This document shows positions 6,377-22,877 of a DNA stretch of 64,000 nt, in pieces. Within the stretch, counting starts at the first letter, position 1. The number at the start of each line of letters is the position of its first letter. The DNA comes from Methanotorris igneus Kol 5 (GTDB taxonomy: Archaea > AGJL01 > Methanococci > Methanococcales > Methanococcaceae). The position numbers and the translations under genes are program-made. Location: the NCBI RefSeq assembly GCF_000214415.1, contig NC_015562.1, positions 1,240,001 to 1,304,000 on the forward strand. The letters are read 5' to 3'. Below the pieces are notes generated by a model that was given only the letters and a program-made list of their open reading frames with translations, made no database searches and was not told where the DNA came from.

Positions 6377-9300
6377 GTGGGTGGAATGTTGGCACATGGT
6401 AGCAATACTGGAACAATTAAAAGATTGAAAAAAGAATATTCTGATGAAGAAATTTATGCTATTTTAGAAGAGCCGGTCAAAGAATGGTTTAAAAGAAAGT
6501 ATGGAGCTTTTACTCCACCTCAAAGATATGCAGTTATGGAAATTCACAAAAAGCGAAATGTATTAATTTCTTCACCAACAGGGAGTGGAAAGACATTATC
6601 TGCTTTTTTAGCAGCGATTAATGAATTAATATCCCTCTCCATAAATAAAAAGTTGGAGGATAAAATTTACGTTCTATATGTGTCTCCATTGAGGGCATTG
6701 AATAATGACATTGAAAAGAACCTAAAAGAACCTTTAAAGGAAATATATGAAGTTGCAAAGGAGTTGGGTGTTGAGTTGGATGAAATTAGGGTTGCTGTTA
6801 GAACAAGTGACACAACAAGTTATCAAAAATCAAAGATGGTTAAAAAACCTCCACATATACTAATAACAACCCCAGAAAGTTTGGCTATTGCTTTAAATTC
6901 TCCAAAATTTTCTGAGCATTTAAAATCTATAAGGTATGTGATTGTTGATGAGATTCATGCATTAACAAACAAGAGGGGGGTTCATTTAGCTCTATCTTTG
7001 GAGAGGTTGAATAGAATAGCGGATTTTGTAAGGATTGGGTTGAGTGCAACTGTTCATCCATTAGAAGAAGTTGCAAAGTTTTTGGTTGGTGTTGGGAGGG
7101 AGTGCCTAATAGTTGATGTAAATTACCTAAAGGACACTGAAATAAAGGTCATCTCTCCAGTGGATGATTTAATTTACACTCCAAGTGATGAGATATCAAA
7201 AAAACTCTACAAAACATTAAAAGAGCTTATTGAAAAGCATAGAACAACGCTTATCTTTACAAATACAAGGAGTGCAACAGAGAGGGTTGTTTATAATTTG
7301 AGGAATTTGAGCATTAAAAACATTGAGGCTCATCATTCATCATTAAGCAGGGAACATAGGTTAGAAGTTGAGGAGAAATTGAAAAAGGGAGAGCTTAGAG
7401 CTGTTGTATGTGTTGCAGGGGATTCTAAGATACTAACTGACAATGGAATTAAAATGATAAAGGAGTTGTATGGAAAAGAAGCAATCACTGGAATTGAGAA
7501 TGGAAAAGTAAAGTTTGTTAAGTTTAGGAAGCCCCATAAAATTAAATACTCAGCTGAAGGCTTGCTCATTCGAACATCTCTTGGCTTTGAAGTTAAGGCT
7601 ACAAAAGAGCACAAATTCCTAACTGTTGATGAGAATGGAAAACTTAAGTGGATTGAAGCAGAGAATTTGAAGGCTGGAAATTACATAGCTGTCCTTAGAA
7701 AGCTTCCATCTATTGAGAGAGAAGTCTCTATTTTTAAGTTTCTACCAGATTCAGCATACCTTCATCTGAAAATAGAGTTCCTGAGCAAACTAAAAAGAGA
7801 GATGCAGGATAAATTTGGCTCAATTAGTGCTTTTGCAAAGAAAATGGGGTTGAGTCGTAGTCACCTAATAAAACAGCTTAATGGGATCTATCCTTTCAGA
7901 TGGGATCTGCTAAAAGAAATATTGAGGCAACTTTCTCTTGAGCTGTCAACTGAAAATGTTTCAAAAATCACGACAGATAAAGGAAAATACCACATGCCTC
8001 TCAACTTTACTCCTTTTATGGCCCGTCTCCTCGGCTTCTGGATGGCTGATGGCTCATGGAAAAGTGGAACCTTAACTTTATTCTCCAGTGACTTAGATCT
8101 GCTGGAAAAGTATGGAGAGCAAGCGAAAAGGGAATTCGGAGTTAAGCCCGTAGTTAGAAAGCAGAACGTCAGTACTTATGCGTTAGAGCTGTCCTTTAAA
8201 ACTCTCATGGGGATGTTTAAGGCATTAGTTGGGAACAGTGGCAGAAAGTCCAAGCATGGAACATTTCCAAAAATTCTGTATAGTCTCCCATTGGAGCATA
8301 AGAAGCAATTTTTATCTGGCTACTTTGATGGAGACGGGTATCTGGAGATTAAAAATGGGAGAATATTCTCAGCAGGATTCACAACTTTCAACAGAGAGTT
8401 TGCAGATGGCATTAGAGATCTGTTGCTATATTTTGGAATTGTTGCCTCGATAAGAAAGAGGAATTACAATGAAGTCCAGCATTTTAGAGGTAGGATAATT
8501 TCAAAAAGAGGCACGGCCTATACTGTCTCAGTGCTGGGTGGAGAATATCTTAGACGATTCTTTGAAATCATAGAGCCTTGGAGAGATGAACTAAAGAAGA
8601 TTAAGGAGTTTAAATTTTCAGGTTATTCAAATAGAGATGTAATCCCAAACATGGGGAAGAGACTTAGATACCTCAGGTTAAAGCTCGGAATAAGTACCTA
8701 CAAACTACAAAAAGAGCTGTATAATCCAGAGAAAGTGGAAATTGGAGAGAGGCAGATAAGCAGGAGAAATATGATTAAGCTGCTGAGAGTCTACTTGAGG
8801 AAAGCTGAGAAGAAGGGTGATAAAAATCTCGCTCACGAAATAAAAGAGTTACTCAATCTTGCAGAGGGGGATATATTCTTTGATAAAATTAAGGAAATTA
8901 AACCCACGTTTATCGATGAAGCCTATGGAATAATAGACTCAGAAACTGAAAACTACGTTGTCAACGGTTTTATCTCGAAAAACAGCTCTACCTCGCTTGA
9001 GTTAGGTATAGATATTGGAAGCATTGACTTGGTTATTCTTCTTGGCTCACCAAAGAGTGTTTCAAGGGCATTGCAGAGGATTGGAAGGAGTGGACATAGG
9101 TTGCATGAAAAGAGTAAAGGAATTATCATTGCGTTTGATAGGGATGATTTAGTTGAATGCACTGTTTTAGCTCACAATGCAAGGAATAGGAAAATAGATA
9201 AAGTTCACATTCCAAAAAACTGCTTAGATGTCCTCTGCCAGCATATTGTTGGGATGAGTTTGGAGAAAGTTTGGGAGATTGATGAGGCATATAACTTAGT

Positions 9301-10513
9301 GAGGAAAGCATACCCCTACAAGGACTTGAGCAAGGAGGACTTTTTGGATGTTCTCAACTATTTGGCTAAGGGGATGGAAGAAAAATCCATATATGGAAAA
9401 ATTTGGTTAAAAGATAATAGGTTTGGAAAGAGAGGAAAATCAACAAGAGCAATCTACTATATGAACGTGGGAACTATTCCAGATGAGACATCAGTAGCAG
9501 TTTATTGCAATTCAAAATACATTGGAGAGGTTGAGGAGGAATTTGCGGAGAAGTTGATGAGGGGAGATATATTTGTTTTGGGGGGAAAGACATACAAATA
9601 CATTGGAGGTAGAGGGAATAGGATTAATGTAAAGGAGGCATTTGATGAAAAACCAACGATTCCCGCATGGTTTTCTGAGCAGTTGCCACTTGCTTATGAT
9701 TTGGCATTGGATATCCAGAAGTTTAGAGGAGAAGTTTTGTGGATGAGTGTTGAGGATATAATGGAAAAGTATCAGGTGGATGAAAAAACCGCAAGAGCAA
9801 TAAAAAACTACATCACCGAACAGGATAGATACGCGGTAGTCCCAAACCATAAGCAAATTTTAATTGAGCACTTTGTAGATGAGAAGAGGAGGTATTATGT
9901 GTTCCACTTCTTAATTGGTAGGAGGGCAAATGATGCCATATCAAGGGCTTTTGCCTATTATGTATCAAATCTAAAAAAATGCAATGTTAGAGTTTCAATA
10001 AGTGATAATGGCTTTGCTTTGATACTTCCAAAAAATAGAAAACTGACAAAAGCCAACATAGTTGAACTTTTTAACATAGATTTAGAGGAGACGCTTAAAA
10101 AATCCTTAGAAAGGGCGGAGATATTAAAGAGGAGATTTAGACACGTTGCAACAAGGGGTTTTATGATTTTGAGGAAGTATATGGGTAGGAAGATGAGTGT
10201 TAATAGACAACAGTTTAATGCTGAGATGTTAATAAAATACTGCAGAGAAATCAATCATCCGCTCTACAGGGAGACAATAAGGGAGATATTGGAGGATGTT
10301 ATGGATATTGAAAATGCAAAGGATTTCATGAAAAAAGTTAAAAATATGAGGATATATTATAGAGAACTTCCTTATCCATCCCCATTTGCATTTAACTTAA
10401 TTGCTATGGCGTCGTCTGATGTTATTGTTATGGAGGATAAGAAAAAACTCATCATGGAGATGCACAAAAAGGTTATGGAATTCTTAAAGAATAAGGTAGG
10501 GAAAAATATCTGA
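6377..10513 (+). CDS. lhr: Lhr-type superfamily 2 DNA helicase with an intein
   Basis: This is a large helicase-related (Lhr) ATPase, a 3'-5' DNA helicase class tied to archaeal DNA repair. The precursor has 1378 residues; without the intein (residues 345-869) the host protein is 853, the usual length. Seen in order are motif I SSPTGSGKT (about 65), the DEIH box VDEIHA (about 190), the SAT motif GLSATVH (about 220), motif V split by the intein and rejoined as VVSSTSLELGIDIG, and motif VI QRIGRSGHR. The long C-terminal part matches the WH and Lhr core domains. Translation starts at GTG behind GAGGTG; an ATG lies three codons in. Confidence 0.93.
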   Translation: MGGMLAHGSNTGTIKRLKKEYSDEEIYAILEEPVKEWFKRKYGAFTPPQRYAVMEIHKKRNVLISSPTGSGKTLSAFLAAINELISLSINKKLEDKIYVLYVSPLRALNNDIEKNLKEPLKEIYEVAKELGVELDEIRVAVRTSDTTSYQKSKMVKKPPHILITTPESLAIALNSPKFSEHLKSIRYVIVDEIHALTNKRGVHLALSLERLNRIADFVRIGLSATVHPLEEVAKFLVGVGRECLIVDVNYLKDTEIKVISPVDDLIYTPSDEISKKLYKTLKELIEKHRTTLIFTNTRSATERVVYNLRNLSIKNIEAHHSSLSREHRLEVEEKLKKGELRAVVCVAGDSKILTDNGIKMIKELYGKEAITGIENGKVKFVKFRKPHKIKYSAEGLLIRTSLGFEVKATKEHKFLTVDENGKLKWIEAENLKAGNYIAVLRKLPSIEREVSIFKFLPDSAYLHLKIEFLSKLKREMQDKFGSISAFAKKMGLSRSHLIKQLNGIYPFRWDLLKEILRQLSLELSTENVSKITTDKGKYHMPLNFTPFMARLLGFWMADGSWKSGTLTLFSSDLDLLEKYGEQAKREFGVKPVVRKQNVSTYALELSFKTLMGMFKALVGNSGRKSKHGTFPKILYSLPLEHKKQFLSGYFDGDGYLEIKNGRIFSAGFTTFNREFADGIRDLLLYFGIVASIRKRNYNEVQHFRGRIISKRGTAYTVSVLGGEYLRRFFEIIEPWRDELKKIKEFKFSGYSNRDVIPNMGKRLRYLRLKLGISTYKLQKELYNPEKVEIGERQISRRNMIKLLRVYLRKAEKKGDKNLAHEIKELLNLAEGDIFFDKIKEIKPTFIDEAYGIIDSETENYVVNGFISKNSSTSLELGIDIGSIDLVILLGSPKSVSRALQRIGRSGHRLHEKSKGIIIAFDRDDLVECTVLAHNARNRKIDKVHIPKNCLDVLCQHIVGMSLEKVWEIDEAYNLVRKAYPYKDLSKEDFLDVLNYLAKGMEEKSIYGKIWLKDNRFGKRGKSTRAIYYMNVGTIPDETSVAVYCNSKYIGEVEEEFAEKLMRGDIFVLGGKTYKYIGGRGNRINVKEAFDEKPTIPAWFSEQLPLAYDLALDIQKFRGEVLWMSVEDIMEKYQVDEKTARAIKNYITEQDRYAVVPNHKQILIEHFVDEKRRYYVFHFLIGRRANDAISRAFAYYVSNLKKCNVRVSISDNGFALILPKNRKLTKANIVELFNIDLEETLKKSLERAEILKRRFRHVATRGFMILRKYMGRKMSVNRQQFNAEMLIKYCREINHPLYRETIREILEDVMDIENAKDFMKKVKNMRIYYRELPYPSPFAFNLIAMASSDVIVMEDKKKLIMEMHKKVMEFLKNKVGKNI
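7409..8983 (+). other. Intein with LAGLIDADG homing endonuclease, inserted in helicase motif V
   Basis: The intein is 525 residues. It begins at Cys345 with CVAGDSKILT (splicing block A), has a block-B-like TKEHKFLT, and ends FISKN before the C-extein Ser. Removing it restores VVSSTSLELGID, so the boundaries are well supported. Two LAGLIDADG motifs are visible, LLGFWMADGS (about residue 551) and FLSGYFDGDG (about 643), so the endonuclease looks complete. A helix-turn-helix-like stretch (SISAFAKKMGLSRSHLIKQL) precedes them. The residue before the terminal Asn is Lys rather than the common His. Codons such as CGT, CTC and GGC are more frequent here than in the exteins, which suggests transfer. 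Confidence 0.93.
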
Positions 10514-10613: not shown

Positions 10614-10718
10614 ATGTTCAAATAAGGAAACTATACAAGTTTAGTAAAATTTTAATTGTAGTTAGGTAAAATAATTTAATCATGTATAACAAAGGATATG
10701 ATATTACTTGGTGATTGT

Positions 10719-13322
10719 ATGGATTCTGAATATAGGGCAGTTGTTATAGGGGCTTTGTTGCATGATATTGGTAAGTTTGTTCAAAGAAAAATTATGGATG
10801 AAGGCAAAAAACAACAAAAACATGAAATTGAAGGTTATAATTATTTAAAAAAATTGTTTGATGAGGGATTTTTAAGTTTTTTAAGTGATAAAGAAGAAAG
10901 GATAATCTTAGATATTGTTAAAGAACATCACAACAACAAAATAAAAGATGGGTATGTTGGTATAGTAAGATTGGCTGATTGGTTAAGTAGTGGGGAGAGA
11001 AAGTCTGTTGAAGAGAGTGATATTTTAAAGGGTTATGGAGAAGATATAAAGTTGTTATCAATTTTTGAAACTGCAAATCTTTTAAAACATGTTGAAAGTG
11101 AGAGTAAATTAGAAACTCTCTATGGGATGGGATATAAGTATCCACTTAAGGAATTAAAAATAAATAAAAAAGTTATTTTTACAAATAAACCATACCCAAA
11201 TGACAATTATGTTGATTTATTTAATGACTTTGAAACAGCTTTAGGAGATTTTAAAAATAAAAATGATATCAGTTTTGAAGAACTTCTGCAACTCCTATAT
11301 AAATATACTTGGTGCATACCTTCCGCTACATTTTGGGAGAGTTGTGGAGCAATAAGGGGTAGTTATCCAGACATTTCTTTATATGACCACTTAAAAACAA
11401 CCTGTGCAATTGCAGCATGCCTCTATAGGCTTTATGAGAGTAAAAAAATAAATGAAAAAATAAATGATAAAAAATTAAAGGAATACTTAGAAAGAAAAAA
11501 CTGGGATGATAAAATATTCTGCCTTATTCATGGAGACATTTCAGGAATTCAGGACTTTATTTTTACAGTTAAAAATAAATATGCAGCAAAAACTTTGAGA
11601 GGAAGGAGCTTTTACTTAGATTTTTTAATGGAGTATTTGGCAAGATATATTTGTAAAGAGTTAGATTTACCAATAGCTAACATACTATTCTGTGGAGGGG
11701 GGCATTTCTATATTTTAAGTTATAAAGTTGATGATGGGAAAATTGAGGAATTTGAGAAGAAAATAAATGATATTCTTTTTGATATGTTTAAAACTAAAGT
11801 TTATGTTTATTTAGTCAAAGAAGATGTTAGTTTAAGTGATTTTTTAGACTTTTCAAAAGTTTGGAAGAGAGTTTCAGACAGAACAGTAGAGAGAAAGTTA
11901 AGAAGGTTTGACTATAAATTAGAGAAAATATTCAAGAAGCCAATTGATGATGGTAAAGATGAGAGATGTAAAATATGCAATAATGAATTAAAAGATGAAA
12001 AAATACCTTTAGAAGAAGAGGAAGGATATAGGTGCCCATATTGTGAGTCATTTATAAATATAACTGAAAAATTAAAAAAATATTCTAAAGAAAATAAGTT
12101 TAAATTAAAAGAAATTTTTAATGATGAAAATGAAATAAAAATAAAGATATTTAAAGAGTTAGAAAATAGTTTCAACCTTTTAGAAGATAAAGGGTTCTTC
12201 AGATATTATTTAGATGAGTATAATTTGCCTGATAACAATGGAGAGTTAATAATCCCATTTAAAATCTTCCCAATATCATTCCCATTAGATGAGAATGGGG
12301 ATATTATAGATTTAAATGAACTGGCTAAAAAAGCTGAAAAAAGAACAGGAACAAATAAAATAGCTGTATTAAAGATGGATGTTGATAACTTAGGAGAGTT
12401 ATTTACTAAAGGATTAAAAATAATAAAGAATAACAAAAATAAAGAACGAAAGAATTTGGCTTCAATATCAAGAATGAGTACATTAAGTAACTTCTTAAGT
12501 TTATTCTTTACTGGATATATCCCTTACTTAATAAAAACTGGAAAATTCAAAGATAAGGAAGGAAAAGAACATGAGTTTAAGGATAATATTTACTTAATCT
12601 ATGCTGGAGGTGATGATACTTTAATAACTGGATCATGGGATGCTGTATGGGAATTAGCCAAAAAAATTAGAGAAGATTTCAAAGAATTTGTTTGCTACAA
12701 TCCATTTATTACCTTAAGTGCTGGAATCTACTTAACTAATCCAAAATTTAAATTTAAGAGAGCTGTTGAATTTGCTGAAGAAGAGCTTGAAAGGGCTAAA
12801 GATAATGAAATTAAGGACATTATAAAGAAAAATTCCTTATCTATCTTCTCAACTCCATTAAATTGGGACTTGGAAGTTAAATACATTCCTGGATTTTGGG
12901 AGAAGTTGAAAGATATTAAGAGTGAGTTAGAACTTGGAAATGAGTTAATAAATGAAATGCTGAGCATGGAAAAATATTGTGAGAAGTTCAATGAAGATGA
13001 GTTAGAGGGTAAATTTAATGAACTAATTAAGGACACCAATAAAAAAAGAATCTTGCATATCTCCCAAGTTGCTGCAGAGATGCTAAATAAAATTGTGAAG
13101 AAAGGTAAAAATGGTGAGATTATTCTCTACCTTCCTTACTATTGGAGGTTGCTTTACTACATTAAAAGAAATTATAAGAAGAAAGAAGAGTATGAAAAAG
13201 TTAAATTCTTAGAAGATTATGTCAAAAGGAAGGTGCACCAAGCTGTACTCCAAAATGTTGGCTTGTCCCTAAATGATCTCAAAGTTGCTGCTAAGATAAC
13301 TGAACTTAAGTGGAGGGGATAG
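10719..13322 (+). CDS. cas10: Type III-A CRISPR protein Cas10 (Csm1)
   Basis: Cas10 is the large subunit of the Csm complex; on target RNA binding it can cut DNA with its HD domain and make cyclic oligoadenylates with its Palm domain. The 867-residue protein has an N-terminal HD motif (LLHDIGKF, His15-Asp16), a zinc-ribbon-like pair (CKIC and CPYC) before the second Palm domain, and an intact GGDD cyclase motif at residues 630-633. Both activities therefore look present. The ATG at 10719 is preceded by GGTGAT; a longer frame from 10698 is less likely. It heads a seven-gene operon. Confidence 0.95.
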   Translation: MDSEYRAVVIGALLHDIGKFVQRKIMDEGKKQQKHEIEGYNYLKKLFDEGFLSFLSDKEERIILDIVKEHHNNKIKDGYVGIVRLADWLSSGERKSVEESDILKGYGEDIKLLSIFETANLLKHVESESKLETLYGMGYKYPLKELKINKKVIFTNKPYPNDNYVDLFNDFETALGDFKNKNDISFEELLQLLYKYTWCIPSATFWESCGAIRGSYPDISLYDHLKTTCAIAACLYRLYESKKINEKINDKKLKEYLERKNWDDKIFCLIHGDISGIQDFIFTVKNKYAAKTLRGRSFYLDFLMEYLARYICKELDLPIANILFCGGGHFYILSYKVDDGKIEEFEKKINDILFDMFKTKVYVYLVKEDVSLSDFLDFSKVWKRVSDRTVERKLRRFDYKLEKIFKKPIDDGKDERCKICNNELKDEKIPLEEEEGYRCPYCESFINITEKLKKYSKENKFKLKEIFNDENEIKIKIFKELENSFNLLEDKGFFRYYLDEYNLPDNNGELIIPFKIFPISFPLDENGDIIDLNELAKKAEKRTGTNKIAVLKMDVDNLGELFTKGLKIIKNNKNKERKNLASISRMSTLSNFLSLFFTGYIPYLIKTGKFKDKEGKEHEFKDNIYLIYAGGDDTLITGSWDAVWELAKKIREDFKEFVCYNPFITLSAGIYLTNPKFKFKRAVEFAEEELERAKDNEIKDIIKKNSLSIFSTPLNWDLEVKYIPGFWEKLKDIKSELELGNELINEMLSMEKYCEKFNEDELEGKFNELIKDTNKKRILHISQVAAEMLNKIVKKGKNGEIILYLPYYWRLLYYIKRNYKKKEEYEKVKFLEDYVKRKVHQAVLQNVGLSLNDLKVAAKITELKWRG

Positions 13323-13324
13323 AT

Positions 13325-13774
13325 ATGGGTTACAGTAAATATCAAAATCCTAATCCTAAAAATGAAAATAAAGCAGGTAAGAATTCTGATAAATTAAAAT
13401 TATTAGATGAAATACTAAATGTAAATGACAAAAATATAAAAAAATTCTTAAATTATGCTGAAGAATTTGCTAATAAAAATTTGAAATATATCTCTTTCAC
13501 AAAAATTAGAAAATTTTATGATTACCTAAATGAAATTTCTCCAGAAGATGAAGATTGGATAATAAAATTTGCTCATTTAAAACCAATGGTAGCTTATCAT
13601 TATGGTAAAGAAAAAAGAAATCAGGGATTATTTGAATTAAAAAAATTAATAGATGCTGTATTTGATAAGATTTATAATGAAAATGATGAAAATAAGAGAA
13701 AAGAAATGTTTAAACACTTTAAAAAATTCTTTGAAGCTATTATAGCATATAAAAGATTTTATGAAGGAAAATAA
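13325..13774 (+). CDS. csm2: Type III-A CRISPR protein Csm2
   Basis: Csm2 is the small alpha-helical subunit that lines the Csm filament. This protein has 149 residues from the ATG at 13325, placed just after the cas10 stop with TGGAGGGGA as ribosome binding site. The N-terminal 25 residues are Asn/Lys-rich and probably disordered; the rest is helical, with a short FTKIRKFYDYL segment typical of the family. Identification rests on that pattern plus position between csm1 and csm3. Confidence 0.88.
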   Translation: MGYSKYQNPNPKNENKAGKNSDKLKLLDEILNVNDKNIKKFLNYAEEFANKNLKYISFTKIRKFYDYLNEISPEDEDWIIKFAHLKPMVAYHYGKEKRNQGLFELKKLIDAVFDKIYNENDENKRKEMFKHFKKFFEAIIAYKRFYEGK

Positions 13775-13787
13775 AAAGGTGATGAAA

Positions 13788-14789
13788 ATGGAAAATATAA
13801 CTTTAAAAGGAAAAGTTATAATTTCAGGAGTTATTGAGTTATTGACAGGATTGCATATTGGAGGGCTTAAAGAAACTTTAAAAATTGGAGGTACTGACGA
13901 TCCAGTAATTAAAGATGCTTTTGGAAGAATATATATTCCAGGCAGCTCTTTAAAAGGAAAAATAAGATGCCTATTAGAAAAATCTATGGGTAAAGGAAAA
14001 GTAAAAGTAGTAATAAAGGTTAAAAAAGAAATTAAAGAAGGAGATAAAAGTAGATATGAAGTTAAAGAAGATAAAGAGGAAACTTATGAGTTAAAGGACT
14101 TTAATACAGACATTGTAGATAAATTAATTGAAGAGTATAAAAGTAAAGGATATACTGAAGATAAAGGCTATAGTATCGAATCTCATATAACAGCATTACC
14201 ATGTAGTTGTGGAGATTGTGTAATATGTAAAATTTTTGGTCCTCATGATTCAAAAAAGATTGAAGAGCCAAGAAGAGTTGTATTTAGAGATGCTTATTTA
14301 GTTAAGGAAATTAATGATAATGAAAAAAATAGAAATAACAGCAATAATGAAGTAATAGAAATAGGTGAGAAAAAATATAAAATTCTAGATGAAAATGATG
14401 AAGAATTAAATGAATATTTGGAAATAAAACCTGAAAATATTATTGATAGAGTTAAGGGAGTTGCTCAGCATCCAAGATTCATTGAAAGAGTTTCAGCAGG
14501 AGCTAAATTTTACTTTGAAATAGTCTTCAATGTTTATAAAAAAGAAGATAAAGAGCTTTTAAAAGAGCTAATAACTGGGATGAAGCTGTTAGAGGATGAC
14601 TACTTAGGAGGCTCTGGAAGTAGAGGATATGGTAAAATAAAGTTTGAAAATTTAAAAATTGTAAACAGACCTAAAGAATACTATGAAGGGAATGAAAAAG
14701 CTGAAAAAGTAACAGATGTTAAAGATTTAGATGAATTAAAAAATTTAAACAAGTTAGAAGAAAAAATAAAAGAAATTTGGAATTATTAA
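13788..14789 (+). CDS. csm3: Type III-A CRISPR protein Csm3 (backbone RNase)
   Basis: Csm3 is the repeated backbone subunit that cuts target RNA every six nucleotides. It has 333 residues, with the RAMP-type LLTGLHIGG near the N-terminus, GGTDDPVIKDAFGRIYIPGS (its Asp is the expected catalytic residue of the GGTDDPV loop) and the Gly-rich SSLKGKIRC. A CSCGDCVICKIFG segment supplies four cysteines that could bind zinc, and GGSGSRGYGKI forms the second Gly-rich loop. The start is the ATG at 13788 after AAGGTGATG. Confidence 0.93.
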   Translation: MENITLKGKVIISGVIELLTGLHIGGLKETLKIGGTDDPVIKDAFGRIYIPGSSLKGKIRCLLEKSMGKGKVKVVIKVKKEIKEGDKSRYEVKEDKEETYELKDFNTDIVDKLIEEYKSKGYTEDKGYSIESHITALPCSCGDCVICKIFGPHDSKKIEEPRRVVFRDAYLVKEINDNEKNRNNSNNEVIEIGEKKYKILDENDEELNEYLEIKPENIIDRVKGVAQHPRFIERVSAGAKFYFEIVFNVYKKEDKELLKELITGMKLLEDDYLGGSGSRGYGKIKFENLKIVNRPKEYYEGNEKAEKVTDVKDLDELKNLNKLEEKIKEIWNY

Positions 14790-14815
14790 GTTTTATTCTT
14801 TTTTTGGTGATAAAA

Positions 14816-15892
14816 ATGAAAAAGTTGGTTATTTTAAAACCAAGTGTTAATAGTAAATATCATTTTGGTAGTGGTGATTTAGAAAAGAGTGATGTAATAT
14901 TTCATTCATCAAATTTATTTTCTGCCATAGTTAATAACTTTGTCTTATTGTATGGGGAAGATTATAAGGAAGAAATAAATAAAAAAGTCGAAGAATTAGC
15001 TGAAAATTTAAGATTATCATCCTTATTTATTAAAATAAAGAATACTTTCCTTTTACCTAAACCAGAGTATCCTATATTTTACTTATTAAAAAATGAAAAT
15101 TACATGAAAATCAAACCAAAAGATGTGAAAAAGATTAAATTTGTTACTTTAAAGGCTTACAAAGAAATAGTTATGGAAAAACTCAAAGAAATTGGCTATG
15201 GTAGTAAAAACTACTATATTAATTGCCTATTTGACAATAATTTAGATGAATATTTTAATAAAAGAGTGACTAAAAGTATTTTTGCTACAGAAGAAGAGAT
15301 TGAGGAAATAAAAAATATAGAAATATTTAAGAGGTATGATGAGGAGAAGAACACAATAGATAGGATTTGTGAAAGGCCTGCTGAAGGGCAGCTCTATAAG
15401 GTAGAGTTTATCAAATTTGACAAAAATGTGGAGCTTTACTTTATTATTGATTATCCAGAATATTTAAATAAAGAGATTCAAGCAAGTATAAGATTGTTGG
15501 CTGATGAGGGTTTAGGGGGAAAGAGAAGTATAGGATCTGGGCATTTTGAAAAGGTTGAGATAAAAGATATAAAAGAATTTAAAGATTTTAATGAATTGTT
15601 TAATACTCAAGGAGAACTAAATATTCTTTTAGGTGTAGGAATTCCTAAAGAAGATGAGATTAGTAATATTAAGTATTATAAACTTTTAGAACTTGGAGGA
15701 TACATTTATTCAACAACTAAGCCAGAATTAGTAACTAAGCATAGAAGGTCATTAATGGCTTTATCTGAAGGTTCTGTAGTTAAGGCATTTGAAGGGTGTA
15801 TAAAAAATGTCAAACCTAAAAATAGCTCTGAAAATATCCATCCAGTATATACTCATGGGAAACCAATAACTCTACCACTGGTGGAAAAATGA
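14816..15892 (+). CDS. csm4: Type III-A CRISPR protein Csm4 (crRNA 5'-tag binder)
   Basis: Csm4 caps the complex and holds the 5' repeat tag of the crRNA next to Cas10. The protein has 358 residues from the ATG at 14816 (TTTGGTGAT ahead). It shows the family N-terminus (LKPSVNSKYHFG), the Gly-rich GLGGKRSIGSGHF loop of RAMP proteins near residue 240 and a second one in the C-terminal half. Its stop overlaps the start of csm5 (ATGA), so the two are translationally coupled. Confidence 0.9.
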   Translation: MKKLVILKPSVNSKYHFGSGDLEKSDVIFHSSNLFSAIVNNFVLLYGEDYKEEINKKVEELAENLRLSSLFIKIKNTFLLPKPEYPIFYLLKNENYMKIKPKDVKKIKFVTLKAYKEIVMEKLKEIGYGSKNYYINCLFDNNLDEYFNKRVTKSIFATEEEIEEIKNIEIFKRYDEEKNTIDRICERPAEGQLYKVEFIKFDKNVELYFIIDYPEYLNKEIQASIRLLADEGLGGKRSIGSGHFEKVEIKDIKEFKDFNELFNTQGELNILLGVGIPKEDEISNIKYYKLLELGGYIYSTTKPELVTKHRRSLMALSEGSVVKAFEGCIKNVKPKNSSENIHPVYTHGKPITLPLVEK

Positions 15893-17031
15893 TGCTAAAA
15901 TGCTCTCTAATAACACCAATATTTATTGGCTGTGGGGAGGAATATACACCATTAGATTACTATATTGAAAATAATATTGCTCATATAGTAGATATTGAAA
16001 AGGCTTTAGAGGATTTGGGAGATTTAAGTAATATAGATAAGATATCAAATTATATTGTAAATAAGTCTATAGGGAATAGAGTAGAGACCAATGCTAAAGA
16101 TATCTTAGAGAGAGTTGGCCTTTGTGCTGAAGATTATGTTGTTTATAAAATAAAATCTGAAATAAAAGAAGATAGTAGAACAAGGGTAAAAAAATTTATT
16201 CATCAAAATAATAGAAAATATGTCCCTGGTAGTTCAATAAAAGGGGCTATAAGAACAGCTTATCTATTTAATTACTATGATGGCAAAATTTCTGAAATAT
16301 TTAAAATATTAGATAACAAAAAAATAGATGATAAAGGAAAAGAAATAGAGAGAAGGGCTATAGGAGATATTAGAGATGATTTCTTTAAATACTTTAAAAT
16401 CTCTGATAGTATTAAATTAGAAAGAGAGGAATTTAAATTTATTTTAACAAAAAGATGGCATATAAAAAAGAAAAAACTAACAATTCCTAATTATTTAGAA
16501 GGAATGACCAAAGGAGAGTTTACAATTAACTTAAAAGTTGAAGAGGAATTCTTTAAAGAACTTAACAATAGATTAAATAAGAATTTTAACCCAAAAAATA
16601 ACCATGAGAAGTTTGAAATAATTAAAGAGTTGTGCAACAACTTCTCCAAAACTGTTGTAGATTTTGAAATTAAAAGAGATCTCCCCATTCTACTAAAGGA
16701 ATTTTATGAAAAATTAAAAAAGGATATTGAAAAGAATGATGCTCTATATATAAACCTTGGTTTTGAAGGAGGATTTTTAAATAAAACTATCTATCCATTG
16801 TTATGGAAAAATGACCAAAATAATGTTCTATTCCATAAAATTAGGCAATTTTTCTTAGATTTATATAAACCTAAAGGAAAAATTAATCCAAGAAATCCAC
16901 AATATAAGTTATATCAAACTTGGCAAAATGCTAAAAGTTATTTGGACTTTCCAACTACAGTTGGAGTTTATGTTAGGGACAATAGGATCATCTCCCCATT
17001 AGGGTGGATAAAATTGGAAAAGGTTAATTAA
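15889..17031 (+). CDS. csm5: Type III-A CRISPR protein Csm5
   Basis: Csm5 caps the 3' side of the Csm backbone and helps crRNA maturation. The protein has 380 residues, with the N-terminal RAMP strand CSLITPIFIGCGEEYTPLDY and the Gly-rich loop YVPGSSIKGAIRTAYL (about residues 107-122) that mark the family. It overlaps csm4 by four bases. Two ATG codons in tandem (15889 and 15892) are both possible starts. Confidence 0.91.
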   Translation: MMLKCSLITPIFIGCGEEYTPLDYYIENNIAHIVDIEKALEDLGDLSNIDKISNYIVNKSIGNRVETNAKDILERVGLCAEDYVVYKIKSEIKEDSRTRVKKFIHQNNRKYVPGSSIKGAIRTAYLFNYYDGKISEIFKILDNKKIDDKGKEIERRAIGDIRDDFFKYFKISDSIKLEREEFKFILTKRWHIKKKKLTIPNYLEGMTKGEFTINLKVEEEFFKELNNRLNKNFNPKNNHEKFEIIKELCNNFSKTVVDFEIKRDLPILLKEFYEKLKKDIEKNDALYINLGFEGGFLNKTIYPLLWKNDQNNVLFHKIRQFFLDLYKPKGKINPRNPQYKLYQTWQNAKSYLDFPTTVGVYVRDNRIISPLGWIKLEKVN

Positions 17032-17047
17032 AATTAGGGGGGATACC

Positions 17048-18310
17048 TTGCCTAAGAAATTAATATCTTTTTTAGGAGCTGGAAAGTATGAGCCTTGTAT
17101 TTATAAATATGAAAATAAGTCAAGCACTGAGAGTAGATTCATACAAAAGGCTTTAATTGAACTAATATGTAAAGATTGGGAAGAGAAAGATGAAATAATC
17201 ATATTATTAACTGAAAAATCAGAGAAGATGAATTGGGAAGGGGAAACCTATAAAGGATTAAAATATGAACTTGAAGAAATGGATATAAAACCAGAAATAA
17301 AGACAATTAAAATTCCTGATGGAAATACAGAAGAGGAAGTATGGGAAATATTTAATAAAATATTTGAAATTATTAATGAAAGGGATGAAATCTATATTGA
17401 TATAACCCATTCTTTCAGATACTTACCAATGCTTGCTACCATAATCTTAGATTATGCCAAAACCCTTAAAGGCATAAAAGTTAAGAAAATCTTTTATGGG
17501 AATGTATTTGGAGAACCAAGAATTATGGAACTGCAAGAATTAGATAGATTGTTAGATTGGAATAAGGCAATAGACAAATTTTTAACTACTGGTTATGTTG
17601 AAGATTTATATAACTTATCTAAAAGAGAATATGGAAAATTGCATAAAGAAAACAGAGAATTGCATGAGTTATTAAAAAATAACACTGGGAAGTTAAAAAA
17701 ATATATGGAATATTTAGCAACTGTTAGAGGGGATGAGATAAATAACTTCGATTATGATGAATTTAAAAATGAAATAGATGAAATTATAAAAATTATTAAA
17801 AAAGATAGCTCCTTAGCTCCATTAATTCCGTTAATTGAAAAGATAAAAGATAAATTTAAAGATTTCAAAAATAATGATAAATACAATTGCTTAAGGGCTG
17901 TTTCACTATGTATTGAATTTAATTTGATTCAGCAGGCTTACACATTATTACAAGAGAGTGTAATAACCTTAATATGTAAAGACCTTGACTTGGATTATTT
18001 AGATAAAGAGTATAGAGGTTTGGTTAGTTCTGCCTTAAATATTGTTGCAAGGGATCTCCCTAAAAATGAATGGAAAATTCCAGGAAAAGATGAAGATGAG
18101 AAAAAGAAGAATTTGGAATTGTTGAAGAAAATAGTTGATCACTTGAAAACAAATAACTTAACAAAATTATCTAAACTGTATGATAAATTAACACAATATA
18201 GAAACAATATAAATCATGCTGGATTTAATAAAGATAAAATGGAACCTAAAAAGTTCAAAAATATGATTAATGAAATATATAGAAATATTTTAAACTTTTA
18301 TTCTATTTAA
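17048..18310 (+). CDS. Csx1/Csm6-like CARF-HEPN ribonuclease (TM1812-type)
   Basis: This is an ancillary effector of type III systems. The N-terminal ~170 residues form a CARF-type domain with SFLGAGKYEP and the DxTHG-like DITHSFR (118-124), which is where cyclic oligoadenylate should bind. The C-terminal ~150 residues are helical and end with a HEPN motif, R385-NNIN-H390 (RX4H), expected to be the RNA-cleaving site. The start is TTG at 17048 behind GGGGGGA. It is 16 bp after csm5. Family membership is clear, but I cannot tell which ring size (cA4 or cA6) it senses. Confidence 0.85.
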   Translation: MPKKLISFLGAGKYEPCIYKYENKSSTESRFIQKALIELICKDWEEKDEIIILLTEKSEKMNWEGETYKGLKYELEEMDIKPEIKTIKIPDGNTEEEVWEIFNKIFEIINERDEIYIDITHSFRYLPMLATIILDYAKTLKGIKVKKIFYGNVFGEPRIMELQELDRLLDWNKAIDKFLTTGYVEDLYNLSKREYGKLHKENRELHELLKNNTGKLKKYMEYLATVRGDEINNFDYDEFKNEIDEIIKIIKKDSSLAPLIPLIEKIKDKFKDFKNNDKYNCLRAVSLCIEFNLIQQAYTLLQESVITLICKDLDLDYLDKEYRGLVSSALNIVARDLPKNEWKIPGKDEDEKKKNLELLKKIVDHLKTNNLTKLSKLYDKLTQYRNNINHAGFNKDKMEPKKFKNMINEIYRNILNFYSI

Positions 18311-18341
18311 TAAAACTTTATTATCACTTTTTGGTGAAATA

Positions 18342-19835
18342 ATGAGAGTTTGGATAAGTACTGTAGGGAGTTCTCCTTTAGCAGTTTTTAATACACTATG
18401 GATGGCTATAGTTAAAGAGGGTTATGTCCCAGATAAGGTGTATTTGTTATGGAATTATAAAGTGGAAAAAAATAAAGAAATTATTAAAAATTATATAAAA
18501 TCTTTAAATGAATCATATAATTTTAATATTGATGTAGATGAAAGTTATAAAGTAAGTGAAGATGACTTTAAGGATTTTTCTAATGCACTAAAAGAGATAA
18601 TTGTTAAAGAGAAGGAAAAAGGAAATGAAATTGCTATTGACATGACTCCTGGAAGGAAGTTTATGAGCGCTCTCTCAATGTTTGCTGGTATTGAGGGGGT
18701 TAGTGATGGAAAAAATAAGTATAAGTGCGATAGAGTCTATTATCTACATTTAAAAGATATGGGTTATATAAACTACCCTCTCTTTTTAATTCCTTTCTCA
18801 ATCCAGGAGTTACATGAGTTTATAAGTGAGTTATCAGGTAGTAAAAAAGATGATAGAAAAGTCTTAAAAAAAGAGGAGTTAGAGGATTTGATTATTAATA
18901 GAAGGGAAATTTTGGCTATTCTTAACCAATATTTTTTATTTGGAAAATCCAATTTTGAAATTAAGGTAGAAAACCAAAAGTTTGCAACGATCTCTTTATA
19001 TGAGAATGATAACAAAGCCAAGGTTGAGATAAATAAAGATTTAAAGTTAAGTTATTATGTTGGTGATTATGAAAGTATTAGTACTATTTTAAATGCTTCT
19101 GGATTAAAGGAGGTTAAATTTATTGTTTATGGTGATGAAAAAGAGGAGTTTAGTGAGAGAGAATTTTATGAATGGTTATTTAAAAAACTAAAAGAAAAAG
19201 AGACTTATTATATAACTTTTGACACAAATGCACTAATAAATCAAATACCAAGGAAAATAATTGACTATTTAGATAAGCAGAGAGAAAAGATATCTCCAAA
19301 TTTTGCTATATCTCAATGTGTTATAAATGAACTAACCAATGAACGAGGGAAGATTAAAGATTGTGAAGATAGAGATTTTATAAACCAGCCTTCTTCAGTT
19401 GATAGGATATTCAAATTAGGATTATCTCAGATAAAATTATTAATAGGGAGGAATGCCGTTATTATCCCTGGTAAAGGTGTGTGGGATAATAATATAAAAG
19501 AATCGTTTGTTAAATTTTCAGATGAACATAAAGGAAAATTGCTAATTTTAACTTCTGACAAGAATTTTACCCATAATCTACAATATTTGCCAGATATAAT
19601 TCCAATTTATGTAGATTTTGGAGAACTTAAAAAATTAGTTAAATGGGAAGAAATTAGGGATTTAATTTATATTTCTTCTATAGTTTTTGGTAAGATATAT
19701 ATTAAACCCATCTCTCAAGTTTTGGGTATTTGGAGGGGAAAGAATCCAATAGATTGGGATGAAGAAAAGGTTTTATTTAGGAAAATAAATGTAATGTGTA
19801 GGCAGGCTGCAAATGTCTTAAGAAATATACATTAA
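18342..19835 (+). CDS. CARF-PIN fusion protein, putative cyclic-oligoadenylate-activated nuclease
   Basis: This 497-residue protein ends the csm operon. Residues 1-~165 look like a CARF domain: a beta strand and loop WISTVGSSPLAVFNTLW (4-20) and a second ligand-loop-like IAIDMTPGRKFMSAL (98-111). Residues ~285-420 look like a PIN nuclease, with FDTNALI (Asp294), VINEL (Glu330) and LTSDKNFTHNL (Asp406) as the acidic metal-binding set. Between them is a ~110-residue linker domain I do not recognise, and a helical tail follows. By position it should act on signal made by Cas10. CARF-PIN fusions are known from comparative genomics; I know of no detailed biochemistry for this type. Confidence 0.82.
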   Translation: MRVWISTVGSSPLAVFNTLWMAIVKEGYVPDKVYLLWNYKVEKNKEIIKNYIKSLNESYNFNIDVDESYKVSEDDFKDFSNALKEIIVKEKEKGNEIAIDMTPGRKFMSALSMFAGIEGVSDGKNKYKCDRVYYLHLKDMGYINYPLFLIPFSIQELHEFISELSGSKKDDRKVLKKEELEDLIINRREILAILNQYFLFGKSNFEIKVENQKFATISLYENDNKAKVEINKDLKLSYYVGDYESISTILNASGLKEVKFIVYGDEKEEFSEREFYEWLFKKLKEKETYYITFDTNALINQIPRKIIDYLDKQREKISPNFAISQCVINELTNERGKIKDCEDRDFINQPSSVDRIFKLGLSQIKLLIGRNAVIIPGKGVWDNNIKESFVKFSDEHKGKLLILTSDKNFTHNLQYLPDIIPIYVDFGELKKLVKWEEIRDLIYISSIVFGKIYIKPISQVLGIWRGKNPIDWDEEKVLFRKINVMCRQAANVLRNIH

Positions 19836-19964: not shown

Positions 19965-20295
19965 TCTTGCTTTTATATACCCCCTGTTGAATTTTGGTAC
20001 TAGAAAATTGGGAAAAAGTATTACTAATTTTTTCAAATTAAAATTGAGATTTTTTAATTATTTTAGTTTTTTGGTTTTATTTTGTATGTTTTAAGTTTGG
20101 ATTGGTTTTGGATTGTGTAATATCTCTGCTAATTATTGAGATTTATTGGCGTGGTTGTGCAATAAATTTAAAAAGAACCTGCACAATCTTTCTTACTTTT
20201 ATAAAGGGTTTGATAATCATGCAGTAAGAAAATTCGGGTTGAAAAAGAAAGATTTATATAGGAGTTTGGGCATAAAATAAGGACAAAGTTATAGG
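19965..20295 (+). promoter_or_regulatory. Leader of CRISPR array 1
   Basis: This 331-bp AT-rich leader begins TCTTGCTTTTATATACCCC and ends directly at the first repeat. It carries TTTATATA (20253-20260) exactly 35 nt before the repeat, the likely promoter of the pre-crRNA. An inverted pair CTTTCTTAC/GTAAGAAA lies ~60-90 nt from the repeat. The same leader occurs at array 2 (22212-22542) and, inverted, at array 3. Confidence 0.85.
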
Positions 20296-20641
20296 GTTTG
20301 AATTGCTTATCCATTAAAACAAGGATGGAAACAAATCTTGGCTTCCGAACCAGCTACTATCCAATATATTGTTTGAATTGCTTATCCATTAAAACAAGGA
20401 TGGAAACTTCTATTGACATACCTTCTGTCAAGAATCCAATACCTCTTAATTCTCTAGTTTGAATTGCTTATCCATTAAAACAAGGATGGAAACTGAGTAG
20501 ATATATAGTGGATTTAATAGGCGATGGTTGTTTGAATACCTCATCCATTAAAACAAGGATGGAAACAAACAAGGATAGAAAATACTGCACTCGAAAACTC
20601 GAAAGTTCGAACACCTAATCTATTAAAACAAGGATGGAAAA
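20296..20641 (+). CRISPR. CRISPR array 1: five repeats of the 37-bp type
   Basis: Repeats of 37 bp start at 20296, 20371, 20457, 20530 and 20605. The first three begin GTTTGAATTGCTTATCC and all share ATTAAAACAAGGATGGAAA. The fourth (GTTTGAATACCTCATCC) equals the leader-distal repeat of array 3, and the fifth is degenerate, marking the trailer end. Spacers are 36-49 bp. Just after repeat 4 there is a partial echo of the repeat (ACAAGGATAGAAA). Orientation is leader at left, read on the plus strand. Confidence 0.95.
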
Positions 20642-20709
20642 GAAATATATAAAAAAAGCACAAAGATATTTTATTTTTAAATAAAGATTTGGAAAAATGT
20701 ATAGTTTTA

Positions 20710-21375
20710 CTATTTAACTTTAACTACACTTCCAAATCCTTTGGAAACTTTTCTCCCAATTCCTAAGTAATTTGGGATATCGAAGTTAATTTCAAATTCT
20801 CCTTTAAAACCAATGAACTTGTTTCCCTTATACCTAACAATTAAACTTTCAACATCCAAAATTTCCACAATTAACTTCTCTTCAACAGTATAATCTAAAT
20901 ACTTACTCATAGATAATACATTTCCAATTAAGATTTTTTCAAGTAAATTTTTTCTCCCGTCTTCATCCAACTCTTTATATTTCAGATAATTCTTTTCATT
21001 TAATGCCACCCATGGGGAGATAAACTTGTATCTTTTCATCTCATCAGAAACCCCAAATTCCTCAAATACAACCTTTACATATCCACCAGTAACAGTGTAA
21101 ACCTTATGGTTTAACTCTAATTTTTTAATATCCAATACAATCTCTCCCAAAATATTAATCCCTTCCTTTATGCCAATTAAAACTGCATCTCCACCAATAA
21201 TTTTATATTGAATTTTTGGATAGGTGTAGATAAATCCATTATTACTATGATTATGCAACTCTTTATAATCCTCTTTATTAAATTCATTCAAAATATATCC
21301 CCTTAAATATGGAGTTTGGGATTTTTTTAGAGGCTCATTTGTTTTTAACCTACACATTAAAATAGGAAGTTCCAT
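20710..21375 (-). CDS. cas6b: CRISPR endoribonuclease Cas6b
   Basis: Cas6b cuts pre-crRNA inside the repeats and is the type I-B processing enzyme of methanogens. The 221-residue protein has HNH-type histidines His41 and His43 plus Tyr50/Tyr52 in LHNHSNNGFIYTYP, the same spacing as catalytic residues known for the Methanococcus maripaludis enzyme, and ends with the Gly-rich loop GIGRKVSKGFGSV. It lies 13 bp downstream of a truncated cas3 and between two arrays of the 37-bp repeat, which is its likely substrate. It may also serve the Csm complex. Confidence 0.85.
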   Translation of the reverse strand: MELPILMCRLKTNEPLKKSQTPYLRGYILNEFNKEDYKELHNHSNNGFIYTYPKIQYKIIGGDAVLIGIKEGINILGEIVLDIKKLELNHKVYTVTGGYVKVVFEEFGVSDEMKRYKFISPWVALNEKNYLKYKELDEDGRKNLLEKILIGNVLSMSKYLDYTVEEKLIVEILDVESLIVRYKGNKFIGFKGEFEINFDIPNYLGIGRKVSKGFGSVVKVK

Positions 21376-21388
21376 AGTCCCACCAAAT

Positions 21389-22213
21389 TTAAAGTATTAT
21401 TGTTTTATCCTCAACAATTTCAAAACCAGTTTCTTTATCATAATATTTCTTATCTATTTTACTCAAATGCTCGAATAAAATATCCTTTCCTTTTATAGCA
21501 TATTCGGGAACACTTATAACATAACTATAAAATTTTCTCTTTATTTTTAGGAATTCTCTCCTCCTCTCAAATACATCCTTTATTTCATTAATTCTTTCAA
21601 ATTCCTCCCAAACCTTCTCAGCCTCATCTTCAATACAGACAAATAAGTCAATAGATGGAATATTTTCAATTAATTTGAATTTCCCTTCAACTACGTTATA
21701 TTCAAATTTTTCTATGGTTTTTAAAATGTCTTCTGATTTATCTTTGTAATTGCTTAATTTTTTGAAATATTTGTTATTCAATTTTAGGAACATCTTTTCA
21801 TCAATAACATCAAACTCATTTAATAACTCTTCAGTTTTGGTTATTAGATGTTTTTCATAAATATAATCTGCAAACCTTCTACCATTTTCATCTACCAATT
21901 TAACAACATTAACTATTCCCTTTTTTCCTTCATTATGCCTGTTGCACCTCCCAGCAGTTTGATTTATACAATCCAAGGGAGCAATATCTCTATAAATAAC
22001 ATCTACACTAATATCAACCCCTGCCTCAATTAATTGGGTTGAAACAATAATTTTTCTATTTTTATTTTTATTGATGCTTTCAATTCTTTTCAATCTTTCT
22101 TTTGGATATATACTTGTTGATAAATAATAAAAATCTTCCTCTAAACCCATCTCTTTTAAAGCCTTATAAATCTTTTTTGATGATTTTATGGTATTTAGGA
22201 CAATAAGATAATC
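21389..22213 (-). pseudogene. cas3: cas3 remnant, C-terminal part only
   Basis: The frame encodes helicase motif IV (DYLIVLNTIKSSKKIYK), motif V/VI (STQLIEAGVDISVD and NQTAGRCNRHNEG) and the C-terminal domain of the type I Cas3 nuclease-helicase. It is open without an in-frame stop up to 22213, where it runs straight into the outer end of the leader of array 2. The HD domain and motifs I-III are absent and are not found beyond the array. An internal ATG at 22150 gives a 253-residue product, but without Walker motifs it cannot be an active helicase. No cas5, cas7 or cas8 is nearby. Confidence 0.88.
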
Positions 22214-22542
22214 TTGCTTTTATATACCCCCTGTTGAATTTTGGTACTAGAAAATTGGAAAAAAGTATTACTGATTTTTTCAAATTAAAATTGAGATTTT
22301 TTAATTATTTTAGTTTTTTGGTTTTATTTTGTATGTTTTAAGTTTGAGTTGGTTTTGGATTGTGTAAAATCTCTGCTAATTATTGAGATTTATTGGAGTG
22401 GTTGTGCATTGGATTTATAAATAATTTGCACAATCTTTCTTACTCTTATAAAGGTTTCAATAATTATGCAGTAAGAAAATTCAGTTACAAAAAGAAAGAT
22501 TTATATAGGAGTTTGGGTATAAAATAAGGATGAAGTTATAGG
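22212..22542 (+). promoter_or_regulatory. Leader of CRISPR array 2
   Basis: A near-identical 331-bp copy of the array 1 leader, from TCTTGCTTTTATATACCCC to the first repeat, with TTTATATA at 22500-22507, again 35 nt from the repeat. Its left edge is the break point of cas3. Confidence 0.88.
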
Positions 22543-22790
22543 GTTTGAATTACTTATCCATTAAAACAAGGATGGAAACAAATAATTTGTTTCTGAAACA
22601 ACAATCACATTACGTTTGAATTACTCATCCATTAAAACAAGGATGGAAACGCCAAAGCTCAGGTGGTTGGGATATTGAGTTGTATTGTTTGAATTACTCA
22701 TCCATTAAAACAAGGATGGAAACTAATTATTGCAGAAGTTGTGGGGTTTGCTACGAGTTTGAATTCCCTGTCCATTAAAACAAGGATGAT
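22543..22790 (+). CRISPR. CRISPR array 2: four repeats of the 37-bp type
   Basis: Repeats start at 22543, 22614, 22687 and 22757. The second and third (GTTTGAATTACTCATCC...) are identical to the main repeat of array 3, the first differs by one base, and the last is degenerate (GAATTCCCTGTCC, broken after GGATGA). The three spacers are 33-36 bp. The array is read on the plus strand from the leader at left. Confidence 0.94.
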
Positions 22791-22877
22791 AAATTAAAAA
22801 TAACAAGATTTTTAGAATTTAATTTATAAAATCCATATATTTAAATAAATAAATTAATAAAACCAAAAAATAAAAAT

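Follow-up and report, generated by a model that had tools for sequence, protein, structure and literature searches.

A predicted CARF-PIN effector at the end of a type III-A CRISPR operon in Methanotorris igneus Kol 5, and its two-gene relatives in archaea without detectable Cas10

We propose that the protein encoded by the final gene of a csm operon in Methanotorris igneus Kol 5 is probably a type III-A CARF-PIN effector, a PIN ribonuclease gated by cA4. The gene is located in the window, the 64,000-nucleotide stretch analyzed here (contig NC_015562.1, positions 1,240,001 to 1,304,000), in a genome that consists of a single contig of 1.854 Mb. The present analysis establishes the gene, its operon, the folds of its domains, an invariant catalytic set and fold kinship with a cA4-bound homologue, and we infer the ligand, the dimer, the allostery and the RNA substrate. 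Proteins of this kind were predicted as early as 2014, when "two CARF families associated with PIN" were described (Makarova 2014; PMC4012209), and no functional study of a CARF-PIN protein, including the clade of the window protein, was found in the literature searched. The window protein is a member of a catalogued, little-studied kind, and its two-gene relatives in Cas10-free genomes are the part worth following. If the effector reading is true, the PIN nuclease joins the ways in which type III CRISPR systems convert an alarm into damage.

The csm operon and its setting

The CARF-PIN gene is an open frame of a length expected by chance, given the base composition, with a probability of ~3e-23. 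The initial annotation placed it at the end of a type III-A operon, and this is borne out by a complete csm operon, in which the genes follow one another without large gaps in the order cas10/csm1, csm2, csm3, csm4, csm5, CARF-HEPN and CARF-PIN, with two CRISPR arrays downstream. The features are as follows (window coordinates):

10698..13322, + strand: cas10/csm1 (TIGR02578, E 1.5e-173), with HD and GGDD motifs
13310..17031, + strand: csm2, csm3, csm4 and csm5, by profile matches
17048..18310, + strand: CARF-HEPN (Csx1/Csm6-like) effector gene (TIGR02221, E 6e-29; CARF2--CARF_HEPN, E 4e-110)
18342..19835, + strand: CARF-PIN gene, 497 residues, ATG start (PADLOC PDLC01973, residues 1-494)
20294..20644, + strand: CRISPR array 1, with five repeats of which the final one is degenerate
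20710..21375, - strand: cas6b (Cas6b_C, E 8e-41; Cas6b_N, E 6e-27)
22541..22796, + strand: CRISPR array 2, with four repeats of which the final one is degenerate

The Cas10 cyclase looks intact because the HD motif (residue 22) and the GGDD motif (residue 637) are both present, and the product of the CARF-HEPN gene carries an R-x4-H motif at residue 385.

The same operon is found in a Methanocaldococcus-like genome (G031) with 91-93% DNA identity, minus CARF-HEPN. A short sequence similar to the 3' end of that gene remains there between csm5 and CARF-PIN (L048, near 10329-10387, minus strand; compare window 17032-18341), and the absence is thus best described as a deletion. The CARF2--CARF_HEPN model has no further match in G031, and CARF-PIN is the remaining CARF effector of its operon. 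Between the window and G031 the CARF-PIN gene has a dN/dS of 0.16, which represents purifying selection. The loss of CARF-HEPN and retention of CARF-PIN in this operon shows that CARF-PIN can persist without an adjacent HEPN RNase.

Several other features of the region and the genome are recorded here as separate observations. A 300-nt leader is duplicated with 93% identity (19965-20264 and 22212-22511), one copy upstream of each CRISPR array. Beside cas6b is a Cas3-like protein (21389-22150, - strand) that comprises the C-terminal helicase part only, and the type I interference genes in the window look truncated. The region 6377-10513 (+ strand) encodes a large ATP-dependent helicase, the middle of which, from the translation read by eye, resembles an intein that contains a homing endonuclease. 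A further type III locus lies elsewhere in this genome, outside the window (G000:C1:1353344-1360871); it has a Cas10 of its own, and its CARF-HEPN gene is apparently broken.

Domain architecture of the window protein

Structure prediction and a fold search, which had been suggested as a check in the initial annotation, recovered both a CARF and a PIN fold (AlphaFold, Foldseek). The AlphaFold2 model has a pLDDT of 89.6 for the whole chain and 91.8 for the middle and PIN parts, with a pTM of 0.90 for both. The protein is divided as follows:

18342..18836, + strand: CARF domain, residues 1-165 (AlphaFold and Foldseek; profile match to Sis0455, E 3e-6)
18837..19205, + strand: middle alpha/beta domain, residues ~166-288 (model pLDDT mostly >90)
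19206..19691, + strand: PIN core, residues ~289-450 (invariant acids; fold match to Utp24 and AF0591)
19221-19223, 19329-19331, 19485-19487 and 19557-19559, + strand: PIN acids D294, E330, D382 and D406, respectively
19692..19832, + strand: C-terminal extension, residues 451-497 (W-x-G-K...W-x-x-E motif, K467 invariant)

In Pfam the CARF domain of the window protein is barely visible and its PIN domain has no match. The PADLOC model CARF_m1--CARF_PIN (PDLC01973), however, covers residues 1-494 at E 5.5e-194 and the CARF-only models of the CARF_m1 type match as well, and from the PADLOC model together with the predicted fold the CARF and PIN assignments are secure. The CARF-like loops noted from the sequence at the outset, ISTVGSSP and DMTPGRK, are located at residues 5-12 and 100-106 of a domain that Foldseek confirms as CARF, with the ligand loops proper being TVGSSP (residues 7-12) and TPGRK (residues 102-106). 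Asp294, Glu330 and Asp406 had likewise been placed correctly as PIN acids, and a fourth, Asp382, was overlooked. Across the 48 relatives aligned, all four are conserved without exception (48/48), as are Arg355, Ile385 and Lys467. An HEPN reading of the effector half is rejected, as the sole R-x4-H motif (RVYYLH, residue 131) sits in the CARF domain and the effector half has a PIN fold.

The suggestion that the middle domain might be new did not hold. In the alignment, all split relatives carry this segment at the start of their PIN protein and none at the end of their CARF protein, and by profile alignment the SiRe_0806 group has a shorter version of it. The middle domain, unnamed in Pfam, is a shared piece of the nuclease half and is no separate novelty, and it probably serves as a relay from CARF to PIN.

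Relationship to known CARF proteins

The best PDB match of the whole chain in Foldseek is SiRe_0806 from Sulfolobus islandicus (E ~1e-16, TM 0.69 on the target, 15% identity), followed by further CARF effectors and ring nucleases, with CARF matches to Sis0455, Sso2081 and Cam1. The PIN half alone also retrieves SiRe_0806 first and then the PIN domains of Utp24 and AF0591. Sequence profiles independently reach Sis0455, Sso2081 and SiRe_0806, with a profile-profile match to the SiRe_0806 group at E 9e-16. SiRe_0806, the structure of which is available in the apo state (PDB 9jxw) and with cA4 (PDB 9jxx), has the same CARF-middle-PIN order and matches the fold of the window protein over the whole chain, but it is only ~15% identical, has a shorter middle segment and belongs to the CARF_m3 clade. 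The window protein lies outside that clade, since PDLC01982, the model of the CARF_m3--CARF_PIN group that matches locus L027 at 1e-158, is absent among the 24 PADLOC models that match the window protein at E up to 10. The models that it matches end to end are CARF_m1--CARF_PIN (PDLC01973) and CARF_PIN (PDLC01068), while the split members are represented in PADLOC by the CARF-only models PDLC01971 and PDLC01972, and their PIN partner is without a model. No paper on SiRe_0806 was found in the literature search. That no functional paper on this effector was found either agrees with its initial description as rarely studied, although the S. islandicus homologue has been solved with cA4.

The window protein resembles the Csm6/Csx1 CARF-HEPN effectors, such as that encoded at 17048-18310 in the same operon, in combining a CARF sensor with a nuclease, and differs from them in that the effector domain is PIN rather than HEPN, two unrelated folds. 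With the ring nucleases Sis0455 and Sso2081 (Crn1) it shares the CARF fold and the TVGSSP-like and GRK loops, but in these the CARF is not joined to a nuclease effector domain. They are the nearest single-domain CARF structures, and some CARF halves in haloarchaea are named "CRISPR-associated ring nuclease" by NCBI, both of which would be expected if the CARF domain degraded cyclic oligoadenylate and so ended the alarm, with PIN in a minor or vestigial role. We regard this as highly unlikely given that every PIN acid is invariant, purifying selection acts on the PIN half, the haloarchaeal CARF practically never occurs without PIN, and haloarchaea have no type III cyclic oligoadenylate to degrade. 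The CARF domain of the window protein could nevertheless degrade its ligand in addition. A second alternative, in which the cyclic oligoadenylate gates a DNase instead of an RNase, draws on the DNA 5'-nucleases among PIN-like folds, which are present among the weak viral fold matches; the better non-CARF fold matches include PIN domains that act in rRNA processing, those of Utp24 and Utp23, and a DNase is in our view very unlikely.

Proposed mechanism

The window protein combines an N-terminal CARF_m1 domain, a C-terminal PIN fold with four acids and a type III link with an active-looking Cas10, as is characteristic of a CARF-PIN effector. The initial annotation regarded it as a signal-activated PIN nuclease, and gating by cyclic oligoadenylate is the best reading since CARF and PIN occur in one protein behind an apparently intact Cas10. 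Upon binding of target RNA to the Csm complex, Cas10 would be switched on and would produce a cyclic oligoadenylate, of which cA4 is the likeliest, and a CARF dimer would hold this ring between the TVGSSP and TPGRK loops. The signal would then be relayed via the alpha/beta middle domain, as part of the PIN half, such that a metal-dependent PIN site is opened or assembled, and this site (D294, E330, D382 and D406) would cut RNA and slow both virus and host, acting alongside the HEPN RNase of the preceding gene. The ligand may differ from cA4, because SiRe_0806 is ~15% identical and in the CARF_m3 clade. Moreover, relatives with the same loops are present in Cas10-free genomes, and conservation of the CARF loops alone is therefore no proof of a type III signal.

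Fused and split relatives

Scanning 85,000 species genomes, with one genome per species in the sample, gave no relatives when a single sequence served as the query, and an alignment scan gave 20 loci, all of them archaeal. None were found in viral contigs or in phage records. The single-gene form is found in Methanotorris- and Methanocaldococcus-like genomes, the Thermococcales and Jordarchaeum. The two-gene form is commoner in the loci that were read, and consists of a CARF gene (~160 aa) followed by a middle-PIN gene (~340 aa) that abuts or overlaps it, by 1 or 4 nt in most split pairs and by ~20-29 nt in the Thermococcus set. In two haloarchaea (G584 and G644) CARF and PIN are within one open frame, which supports the idea that the split proteins act together, and this fusion is apparently separate from the main fused clade. 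Methanoperedens (L075), G267 and G284 likewise have split modules in the vicinity of type III genes.

A tree built from the PIN half places the nine fused proteins together in a single clade (support 99/96), and all nine come from genomes with Cas10, mostly in or near type III operons. This bears on a further alternative, a CRISPR-independent, ligand-gated pair resembling a toxin-antitoxin system, in which CARF is a sensor-inhibitor and PIN the toxin, and the window fusion merely resides in the operon and might respond to another signal, such as nucleotides from viral or damaged RNA. The association of the fused clade with Cas10 and the crystallization of the homologue SiRe_0806 with cA4 both argue against this interpretation of the window protein, which we consider unlikely. 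In its favor are the split pairs in genomes that lack Cas10, considered in the next section.

Internal stops are listed in several relatives. Stop-codon readthrough was considered and rejected, the Thermococcales stops being the terminal ones. An in-frame TGA inside CARF is found only in G034 (L068, 10001-11482; the same place as L004 and L050), where the CARF-PIN gene is on a different contig from the csm genes and looks like a decayed copy.

The CARF and PIN pair in genomes without Cas10

PIN profile matches are found in 45 of 294 haloarchaeal genomes and are strong in 42, with no Cas10 in any of the 294 and no RAMP in any of the 42 (0/42), as searched with PF22335 and PF03787, which a very diverged Cas10 or haloarchaeal RAMP (HRAMP) could escape and which do not extend to mCpol. 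The strong haloarchaeal CARF_m1 matches adjoin a PIN match in 44 of 44 cases, although a contig end separates the members of one pair and one PIN is no more than a fragment. Eight Thermococcaceae genomes with a split pair (G040, G102, G142, G229, G280, G297, G363 and G379) likewise yielded neither a Cas10 nor a RAMP match. In Cas10-free genomes purifying selection acts on both halves (dN/dS 0.04-0.18), and haloarchaea retain the TPGRK loop unaltered. Their PIN partner is annotated as "hypothetical" and has no Pfam match. The sampled copies of the pair on haloarchaeal plasmids sit in defense islands, the partners of which vary between copies and include BREX, DISARM-type DrmE, AAA-VWA-HEAT-ADP-ribosylglycohydrolase, UvrD and PD-(D/E)XK genes.

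The overlapping pairs in the 42 haloarchaea, those of the eight Thermococcaceae genomes, the defense-island neighbors and the low dN/dS of both halves are all points in favor of the toxin-antitoxin-like interpretation. The independence of the pair from Cas10 in several lineages implies either another signal or another role for CARF, for example in restraining the PIN nuclease. That an intact CARF loop and an intact nuclease are under selection in the 42 haloarchaea without detectable Cas10 indicates that some CARF domains sense a non-type-III signal. We see an even balance for and against the broader proposition that CARF/PIN is a CRISPR-independent archaeal defense module, translationally coupled and responsive to a signal other than that of type III systems, with the window fusion as what would be its type III-linked form. 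The question of what ligands CARF domains bind outside CRISPR is made testable by this two-gene system in tractable archaea (Haloferax, Thermococcus).

A CBASS-type cyclase was considered as the source of the haloarchaeal signal and rejected, as strong SMODS matches are present in 5 of the 42 carriers and 24 of the 252 other genomes, and CD-NTase genes are thus not enriched among the carriers (Fisher p 0.58). As a separate observation, a set comprising an AAA ATPase, VWA, HEAT-repeat and ADP-ribosylglycohydrolase genes recurs beside the pair on haloarchaeal plasmids (L089, 1166-6988; L090, 660-6420; L091, 215-5759; L093, 1-5988), and may be a defense system of its own.
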